Source: Erysipelotrichaceae bacterium
GTDB taxonomy: Bacteria; Bacillota_I; Bacilli_A; Erysipelotrichales; Erysipelotrichaceae
Direction of reading: 5' to 3'
Assembly (NCBI GenBank): GCA_013334325.1
Contig: JAAXXT010000012.1
Location: forward strand, 1-57,644
DNA: 57,644 bases
Within the stretch, counting starts at the first letter, position 1. Each line of letters begins with the position of its first letter. A model generated the notes under the pieces. That model was given only the letters and a program-made list of their open reading frames with translations, did no database searches and was not told the DNA's origin. This document shows, one piece after another, positions 5,519 to 8,213 of the stretch. A program made the position numbers and the translations under genes.

Positions 5519-6043
5519 ATGAACAAAGCCGCTTTAAGAAACAAACATAAAGATCTTCGTTTAAATGTCGATCCTGTTTATCTTGAAGCGGCTTCTTTGC
5601 GTCTTCAAGAAAAAGCATGGGAGATCATAAAAGATGTGTCTTCAGTAGGACTTTATATCTCAATGGATTATGAAGTCTCAACGCGAGCACTACTTCAACG
5701 TTGTCTAGATAACCATAAGATCGTCTGTGTCCCAAAGATCGTACGCAATCAAATGATCTTTATCAAGATCACAGATCTATCTGATTGTCTCAAGAGCCCT
5801 TATGGAATCTTAGAACCATCCTCAAATGAAGCATATAAAGGAAAAATAGATGTCCAAATCATACCGATGTTGGCGTTTAATCAACGACACTTTAGATTAG
5901 GCTATGGGAAAGGTTATTATGATGCCTATCTTAAAAACTACACAGGACTTAAATGTGGTCTTTGTTTCTCAATGGATGAAGATGCTGAATTGATTGAAAG
6001 TGATCATGACATTGCCTGTGATATGATCCTTACTGAAATCTAA
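5519..6043 (+). CDS. 5-formyltetrahydrofolate cyclo-ligase family protein
   Basis: A 174-residue protein of the MTHFS/YgfA family, which converts 5-formyl-THF to 5,10-methenyl-THF with ATP. The N-terminal basic helix (LRNKHKDLR) and the signature FRLGYGKGYYDAYL are present. It begins one base after the sufB stop and is therefore probably the last gene of the suf transcript. The link with SUF is positional only. Confidence 0.9.
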   Translation: MNKAALRNKHKDLRLNVDPVYLEAASLRLQEKAWEIIKDVSSVGLYISMDYEVSTRALLQRCLDNHKIVCVPKIVRNQMIFIKITDLSDCLKSPYGILEPSSNEAYKGKIDVQIIPMLAFNQRHFRLGYGKGYYDAYLKNYTGLKCGLCFSMDEDAELIESDHDIACDMILTEI

Positions 6044-6052
6044 TAGTCACAC

Positions 6053-6067
6053 AGTTTCACACAAACA
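6053..6067 (+). promoter_or_regulatory. Conserved upstream box, copy 1
   Basis: AGTTTCACACAAACA, identical to 6264-6278. It begins exactly 54 bases before the first hairpin of sRNA candidate 1. A further TCACACA lies 10 bp upstream (6047-6053) of the TCACACA inside the box, a one-turn spacing typical of OmpR-type direct-repeat sites. Regulator unknown. Confidence 0.45.
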
Positions 6068-6104
6068 ATACACAGAACTGACATATTGATTTATTAAGAT
6101 AATA

Positions 6105-6230
6105 GTGCAAGGTAAGACTTGCCTGTTCGATTTTCTCTTCTCAAACACAATAACCCTTTTATCGAACAGAACCCTTTCCCCTTTTTAGTAAAAAAGAAAA
6201 AAGATGCTCCCCCCATCTTTTTTCTTTTCT
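6105..6230 (+). ncRNA. Candidate small RNA, tandem copy 1
   Basis: Non-coding segment that can fold into three hairpins. H1 pairs GCAAG with CTTGC (6107-6122). H2 pairs CTGTTCGAT (6123-6131) with ATCGAACAG (6161-6169) around a 29-nt CU/A-rich loop. H3 is a 15-bp intrinsic terminator (6192-6229) with loop CTCCCCC and a T-rich tail. Between H2 and H3 lies a C/T-rich single strand containing CCCTTTCCCC. Copy 2 at 6318-6436 keeps the same architecture with partly different bases. A weak -10 (GATAAT, 6098-6103) is placed for a 5' end near H1. The function is unknown; the C-rich loops suggest pairing to Shine-Dalgarno sequences. Confidence 0.6.
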
Positions 6231-6263
6231 AGGAGATCTCTTATGAATTAGTTTAAAAAACAT

Positions 6264-6278
6264 AGTTTCACACAAACA
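6264..6278 (+). promoter_or_regulatory. Conserved upstream box, copy 2
   Basis: AGTTTCACACAAACA, identical to 6053-6067. It again begins exactly 54 bases before the first hairpin (6318) of the downstream sRNA candidate, while most sequence in between differs. Conserved spacing supports a transcription-factor site. Confidence 0.45.
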
Positions 6279-6317
6279 CACCATACCCCTAACACAATGC
6301 TAGATTAGAATGTGTTT

Positions 6318-6436
6318 GTAAGATAAAGATCTTACCTGTTCGATTTTCCCTTTCAATAATAATTCTCCTTTCTAGAACAGTAACCCTCCCTTAGGTTAAA
6401 AAAAGAAAAAGATGCTCCCCCGGCATCTTTTTTCTT
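6318..6436 (+). ncRNA. Candidate small RNA, tandem copy 2
   Basis: Second copy of the candidate at 6105-6230. H1 pairs GTAAGAT with ATCTTAC around AAAG (6318-6335); its bases differ from copy 1 but pairing is kept. H2 starts directly after with CTGTTCGATTTTC (6336) and closes with GAACAG (6375-6380). Its loop contains CTCCTTTCTA, identical to the anti-Shine-Dalgarno tail at the 3' end of Bacillota 16S rRNA. H3 is a terminator (about 6400-6436) with loop TCCCCC. A TAGAAT -10 at 6306-6311 would place the 5' end at 6318, the first base of H1. Confidence 0.6.
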
Positions 6437-6442
6437 GCTTAT

Positions 6443-6471
6443 TTGACATCATTAAATGCCTTACTTATACT
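6443..6471 (+). promoter_or_regulatory. Promoter of the NUDIX gene, leaderless start
   Basis: TTGACA (6443-6448), 17-bp spacer, TATACT (6466-6471). The -10 ends six bases before the ATG at 6478, so the transcript should begin at or next to the start codon. No Shine-Dalgarno is present. Confidence 0.7.
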
Positions 6472-6477
6472 ATAGAA

Positions 6478-6993
6478 ATGAAAATCCTTGCTTATTTCCA
6501 CGATGACCAATATGTAGCTTCACCCATACAACAGATTCGTTTTACCGCAAGAGTCTATGTTTTTAACCATGAAGGCAAGGTAGCTTTCTTACGCATCAAA
6601 GGAGAAGATGGTTTTGGGCTAAGAAATCATCTTGAAAGTCCTGGCGGAGGTGTAGAAATGAATGAAAGCTTCGAAGAAGCTGCCATTCGTGAGATCGATG
6701 AAGAATTAGGCGCGACTGCAACTCAGTTTAAAGAAATAGGAGTCGTCATCGACCGCTACAACATCATCGATCGTATGACCTTTAGTGTTTATTTTAGTGC
6801 CCAATTAACATCCCTAAAAGAAGAGCTTCATCGAACAGAAGAAGAGATCTTATTGATTGAATCTGTAGAATGGTTGGATATCAACGAAGCTCTATCACTT
6901 TTAAAAAAAGCCGACAGTGCAGTCGACTTGATCATTCATAGACGAGAATTAGCTGCGTTTTCAGTGTTGTGTGAAAGTATGAAGCTTATATAG
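6478..6993 (+). CDS. NUDIX hydrolase
   Basis: A 171-residue protein with a complete NUDIX box, GGVEMNESFEEAAIREIDEELG, which binds the divalent metal and hydrolyses a nucleoside diphosphate linked to some other moiety. The substrate cannot be told from sequence. The start at 6478 (MKILAYFHDDQ) was chosen because the promoter -10 lies six bases upstream. A longer frame from 6412 would begin inside the preceding terminator. Single-gene unit convergent with the radical SAM gene; no clear terminator in the 37-base gap. Confidence 0.85.
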   Translation: MKILAYFHDDQYVASPIQQIRFTARVYVFNHEGKVAFLRIKGEDGFGLRNHLESPGGGVEMNESFEEAAIREIDEELGATATQFKEIGVVIDRYNIIDRMTFSVYFSAQLTSLKEELHRTEEEILLIESVEWLDINEALSLLKKADSAVDLIIHRRELAAFSVLCESMKLI

Positions 6994-8016: not shown

Positions 8017-8022
8017 TATCCC

Positions 8023-8213
8023 ATAGCAATGACAAACCATAGTATGTCCTTCTTTCTATCAAGAGACCTAAGTTAGGGTGTGAATTAGGAGAAAGAAAAC
8101 AGAAACTCAGTTTGGAGCATGAACGTTAAAAACGTTTACGGTTCGCCCCGTTATCAGCTTGAGAAGTAAATAAGGTGGTACCACGGATTATCCGTCCTTT
8201 GGGACCCTTTTTT
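8023..8213 (+). promoter_or_regulatory. T-box leader of leuS
   Basis: The T-box sequence AGGTGGTACCACGG (8173-8186) is followed by complementary CGGATTATCCG, a GTCC-TTTG-GGAC hairpin (8194-8205) and a T run (8208-8213), the standard antiterminator/terminator arrangement. The upstream ~150 bases can form stem I and smaller helices; an AACG/CGTT hairpin lies near 8122-8136. A CTC triplet at 8106-8108 within AAACTCAGT is a candidate leucine specifier, but I could not fold stem I with certainty. Family knowledge: uncharged tRNA binding stabilises the antiterminator and allows synthetase expression. The gene downstream fixes the amino acid as leucine. Confidence 0.85.

Follow-up and report, generated by a model that had tools for sequence, protein, structure and literature searches.

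The window, a stretch of 57,644 nucleotides from an Erysipelotrichaceae genome of 1.95 Mb, contains two diverged copies of one small-RNA gene, located between two predicted protein-coding genes (Table 1). In both units the parts follow the same order, namely a direct repeat, a -10 box, a 5' hairpin, a second stem, a C-rich linker and an intrinsic terminator, and in both the second stem comes directly after the 5' hairpin and encloses a pyrimidine-rich loop of ~30 nt. The spacing of about 210 bp given in a first-pass annotation of this DNA is in good agreement with our full-length alignment of the two copies, promoter included, which places them at an offset of about 211 bp. Because the direct repeat is duplicated along with the RNA, the duplicated unit begins upstream of the transcribed region. 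When compared to dinucleotide shuffles, the predicted folds yielded z-scores of -4.65 for copy 1 and -4.12 for copy 2, with none of 200 shuffles folding as well.

The 5' hairpins and second stems that the annotation had proposed for both copies agree with the sequence and with our folds, as do the terminators with C-rich loops at the end of each. As a trait of the family, however, the C-rich terminator loop did not stand, as CCC in this loop is found in only 18 of the 57 members. A similar outcome awaited the ten bases of the copy 2 loop that had been reported as identical to the 3' tail of 16S rRNA. The identity is present in copy 2, but it was found in one of the 57 members inspected and is thus no feature of the family; the match is probably incidental, and it was rejected as a key feature, being confined to copy 2 and lending no support to the case.

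Table 1. Features of the two small-RNA genes and their surroundings, in window coordinates.
Feature	Position	Strand	Sequence or basis
Upstream neighbour, predicted 5-formyltetrahydrofolate cyclo-ligase, end of suf gene cluster	5519..6043	+	Function from sequence
Operator-like direct repeat, copy 1	6046..6065	+	GTCACACAGTTTCACACAAA, period 10; family position-weight matrix; exact pattern match 6047-6061
Probable -10 box, copy 1	6095..6100	+	TAAGAT; alignment of relatives
Small RNA copy 1	6105..6232	+	Fold and covariance models
Copy 1 5' hairpin	6107-6122		GCAAG/CTTGC, 6107-6111/6118-6122
Copy 1 second stem	6123-6131/6161-6169		CTGTTCGAT/ATCGAACAG, large CU-rich loop
Copy 1 linker			CCCTTTCCCCTTTT, CU-rich, single-stranded
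Copy 1 terminator	6192-6232		Loop GCTCCCCCC
Operator-like direct repeat, copy 2	6257..6276	+	AAAACATAGTTTCACACAAA; matrix score 12.5 bits, position 59
Probable -10 box, copy 2	6306..6311	+	TAGAAT; sequence, spacing as in relatives
Small RNA copy 2	6316..6436	+	Fold and covariance models
Copy 2 5' hairpin	6318-6335		GTAAGAT/ATCTTAC, 6318-6324/6329-6335
Copy 2 second stem	6336-6341/6375-6380		CTGTTC/GAACAG, large loop, then linker
16S 3' tail-identical stretch	6365..6374	+	CTCCTTTCTA, copy 2 only
Copy 2 terminator	6405-6433		Loop TCCCCCG
Predicted sigma70-like promoter of NUDIX gene	6443-6471
Downstream neighbour, predicted NUDIX hydrolase	6480..6993	+	Within ORF 6412-6993, start approximate (about 6480); function from sequence

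Two other structured elements were seen in this region or its counterparts. An ordinary T-box leader (RF00230, 99.9 bits) lies at window 8020-8202, before an apparent leucyl-tRNA synthetase gene. Three relatives of the same genus have another C-rich structured RNA, absent from the window, between the small RNA and the NUDIX gene (L006 1701-1822, L008 1695-1815 and L005 1706-1800); it forms a long, branched stem whose loop is of the CACTTCCCCCACCC type, has fold z-scores of -5.5 and -4.8 in two relatives and -2.4 in the third, is accompanied by promoter-like sequence in all three and by a terminator-like hairpin in L006 and L008, and has no match in Rfam.

Distribution and selection on structure

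By DNA search, the element was recovered from six genomes of the same genus (G001-G006); both window copies are present in G001 and only one copy was found in G002. A covariance model (R1), made from six same-genus sequences and restricted to the transcribed core, detected it in further genera of the Erysipelotrichaceae. When 295 genomes of the order, some of them incomplete, were searched with a second model (R2) built from 22 sequences, 41 genomes gave 54 matches at E<=1e-4, all of them within the Erysipelotrichaceae. The scores of the window copies were 108 bits (R1) and 90 bits (R2) for copy 1, and 72 and 56 bits, respectively, for copy 2. Among the same 295 genomes, the other family of the order gave only weak R2 matches (E>=0.028), and the best match outside the Erysipelotrichaceae in 395 genomes of the class had E 0.0135. 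A spread beyond the family was rejected, as there were weak matches only and the operator described below was absent from all six that were read. Within the searches, one match (G000:C13, at L066, 20 bits) was dropped because it is without the linker motif and resembles coding sequence. A phage or mobile origin was also discarded, as a pattern scan of viral contigs picked up two contigs, each matching by chance within a gene for a phage structural protein.

The first-pass annotation had proposed diverged tandem small-RNA genes under selection for structure, to be checked with a covariance-model search; homologues were indeed recovered across the Erysipelotrichaceae, and they covary. Across 60 aligned matches, both sides are altered in 14 of the 16 pairs (185 cells, 91.6% paired), and the covariation score is 0.52 against 0.03-0.07 in slid controls, which are 27-42% paired; the structural alignment, being fitted to the model, leans somewhat towards structure. 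None of 500 shuffles reached these numbers of altered pairs and cells or this paired share. Compensatory changes are visible by eye already in the first relatives, where the same stem reads CTGTTCG/CGAACAG, CTGATCG/CGATCAG or CTGTACG/CGTACAG.

In several genera the element forms tandem arrays of 2-6 copies, in which each unit, counted with its operator, measures about 190-240 bp. G209 has six copies close together and G106 has three; two plus one were found in G012, G060 and G112, and two each in G031, G068, G197 and G206. That the element precedes the NUDIX gene in same-genus relatives, as it does in the window, is what would be seen if these sequences were cis-acting leaders or terminator regions of that gene, or a dispersed repeat devoid of a regulatory role. 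We regard either case as highly improbable, because the neighbouring genes vary from genus to genus, family members sit at unrelated places in some genomes, each copy has its own terminator, and the window NUDIX gene has its own predicted promoter after the second terminator, while the compensatory changes exclude a neutral dispersed repeat.

Operator repeat and candidate regulator

The covariance models contain neither promoter nor terminator. At 56 of the 57 loci the direct repeat TTCACATAATTTMACA precedes the hairpin core at a constant distance of 59-62 bp, a TAnnnT box lies within 18 nt upstream of the core start at every locus (57/57), and 56 loci have a terminator hairpin with a T-run after it. 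The repeat takes the form TTCACA-N4-TTMACA, with a period of 10, and the refined matrix of the upstream regions has the consensus TTCACATAATTTAACATAAT; all 57 loci but one score above the 99th percentile of shuffled upstream regions with this matrix, and since it was trained on the same loci, the operator evidence draws more on the constant position than on these scores. A search of 116 genomes with TTCACAYAATTTMACA alone gave 17 sites versus 1 for the reversed pattern, and some of these sites are located just upstream of further members too diverged for the models, for example at L165. Operator repeat and terminator, neither of which was used in the models, support the reading of these elements as independent genes, each of which, at the level of its sequence, has a direct-repeat operator of the OmpR type together with a -10 box and an intrinsic terminator, and whose RNA would be switched on by an activated response regulator. 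In two related genomes the operator repeat was also seen before a predicted membrane protein gene (L172 and L173), possibly a further member of the regulon.

We take the direct repeat to be of the type typical of OmpR-type response regulators, ten of which are encoded in the genome carrying the window. The sole other perfect operator match found in that genome lies before cdaA, in a cluster of cdaA, cdaR, glmM, a response regulator and a kinase, the last three of which overlap (names read from sequence). At L185 (2562-8322), cdaA, cdaR and glmM appear to share an operon with a response regulator of the OmpR type and a kinase. An orthologue of the response regulator is encoded in 30 of 30 genomes searched, including two of the order's other family, and is near cdaA in most of them. 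The cdaA promoters of G000 and G002 carry the repeat in forward orientation and those of members of one related genus carry it in reverse, while it was not found before cdaA in most other genera. The response regulator downstream of glmM is a candidate for the control of the RNA, and we treat it as a lead, because the repeat before cdaA is missing in most genera and the regulator also occurs where the RNA was not found. A broader picture, which we offer tentatively, would have this uncatalogued RNA family be a main output of a single two-component system across the Erysipelotrichaceae, with repeated amplification into drifting tandem arrays of up to six copies; given the operator before the cdaA operon in the window's genus and one related genus, the RNA may belong to a self-regulating envelope/c-di-AMP stress circuit.

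Proposed pairing with ribosome-binding sites and relation to known small RNAs

The C-rich linker contains [CU]CCC in all 57 members, and the large loop contains CCC in 50 and a Shine-Dalgarno complement in 47. The RNA would expose these CU-rich segments in its large loop (CCUCUUCUCCUACAUAAUAUCCCCUU in the family consensus) and its linker (UUCUWUCCCCUUAU), and at times also in the terminator loop. In a test where start sites were chosen partly by Shine-Dalgarno strength, the segments found better pairing partners in initiation regions than in coding sequence (p about 1e-9 or lower). Shuffled CU-rich segments, however, do nearly as well, so that base order is weakly informative in three cases only, namely the loop and the linker of copy 2 and the family-consensus linker, and the preference of the pyrimidine segments for initiation regions is mostly due to their CU composition. 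Because base order adds little, the case for translational repression rests on anatomy and precedent (LhrC, RsaE/RoxS and csRNAs), from which we infer that the exposed segments would pair with the Shine-Dalgarno regions of target messages and block their translation. An RNA predicted to be about 120 bases long would, in this way, probably silence other genes by covering their ribosome-binding sites.

Alternatively, the repeated CU-rich motifs might mainly sequester a protein, either by a CsrA-like titration or by binding an RNA chaperone, as repeated short loop motifs and many copies are typical of titrating RNAs, an analogy that has been discussed for LhrC (PMC4132741). Csr/Rsm RNAs, however, use GGA where the motif here is UCCC, the conserved loop segments exceed the usual length of a protein recognition motif, and we have no candidate protein, all of which makes sequestration a very unlikely main function. 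What we consider likely is that the window carries two genes, in tandem, for a trans-acting small RNA conserved in the Erysipelotrichaceae, one that would act by Shine-Dalgarno pairing under the control of a sensor. Tandem duplication of such genes would raise the dose of the RNA and let the copies drift in their choice of targets.

No Rfam family, LhrC included, reaches its gathering cut-off on the element, and permissive Rfam scans gave chance-level matches only. Searches of the open-access literature returned no description of such small RNAs in the Erysipelotrichaceae, and to this extent, and as RsaE fails as well, the claim of the first-pass annotation that the family is new has been borne out; its parallel with LhrC and RsaE holds as a likeness of anatomy and promoter logic, but not as homology. 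Our results support a new RNA family of a functional kind that is already known. FsrA (RF02273) is a C-rich small RNA of Bacillota, from which the element differs with 16.8 bits, in copy 2 only, versus a gathering score of 80. We know of no tandem arrays for RsaE/RoxS.

RoxS, nonetheless, comes close in several respects, with its C-rich regions, its duplicated CCCCUUUGUU, a conserved site near -65 and two-component control (PMC4409812). The Erysipelotrichaceae RNA also has a C-rich loop and linker, with two CCCUUU-type segments, in the hairpin loop and in the linker before the terminator, and an operator-like site around -65, which would be consistent with a diverged but true RsaE/RoxS homologue under ResD/SrrA-type control. 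The covariance model of that family (RF01820), however, gives 22.5 bits on the element (E 0.41), far under the gathering score of 79, and membership was rejected on this basis; neither the 148 genomes of the order nor the 198 of the class that were searched gave a match over the cut-off, the weak matches listed were other loci, and the B. subtilis control was detected. The architecture differs as well, with a separate 5' hairpin followed by an open loop and with a different 5' fold, and we hold descent from a common RsaE/RoxS ancestor to be very unlikely. RsaE/RoxS has been called the only trans-acting small RNA, 6S RNA aside, whose conservation extends from Staphylococcus aureus to Bacillus subtilis (PMC4409812), so that small RNAs of Bacillota conserved across genera appear to be few. 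For the Erysipelotrichaceae, which include gut commensals and animal-associated genera, we found no family-wide small RNA described in the open-access literature, and one with a recognisable operator offers an entry to post-transcriptional control in these bacteria.

LhrC1-5 of Listeria are about 112 nt long and multicopy, require the two-component system LisRK for expression, and carry CU-rich/UCCC sites in the terminator as well as in a stem-loop and in a single-stranded stretch (PMC4132741). The Erysipelotrichaceae RNA is likewise present in multiple, partly tandem copies, and the window copies have CU-rich sequence in loop, linker and terminator loop, the last of these shared by the 18 members noted above. 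In contrast to the almost identical Listeria copies, those studied here are strongly diverged, belong to a different lineage, and possess an extra 5' hairpin and an open large loop. The csRNAs of streptococci, controlled by CiaRH, are also multicopy and have an unpaired region complementary to ribosome-binding sites; their operator is a direct repeat, TTTAAG-N5-TTTAAG, located a short distance before the -10 box (PMC3091779). An unpaired anti-Shine-Dalgarno sequence is what the large loop most often provides in our family; the operator repeat, however, has a period of 10 and not of 11, the CiaR repeat NTTAAG-N5-TTTAAG was not found before the -10 box at the family loci, and the hairpins are different. 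By these comparisons, the family looks like the Erysipelotrichaceae counterpart of the multicopy C-rich small RNAs under two-component control, and its tandem expansions provide a natural test of why such RNAs recur, as LhrC, as csRNAs and in the family described here.
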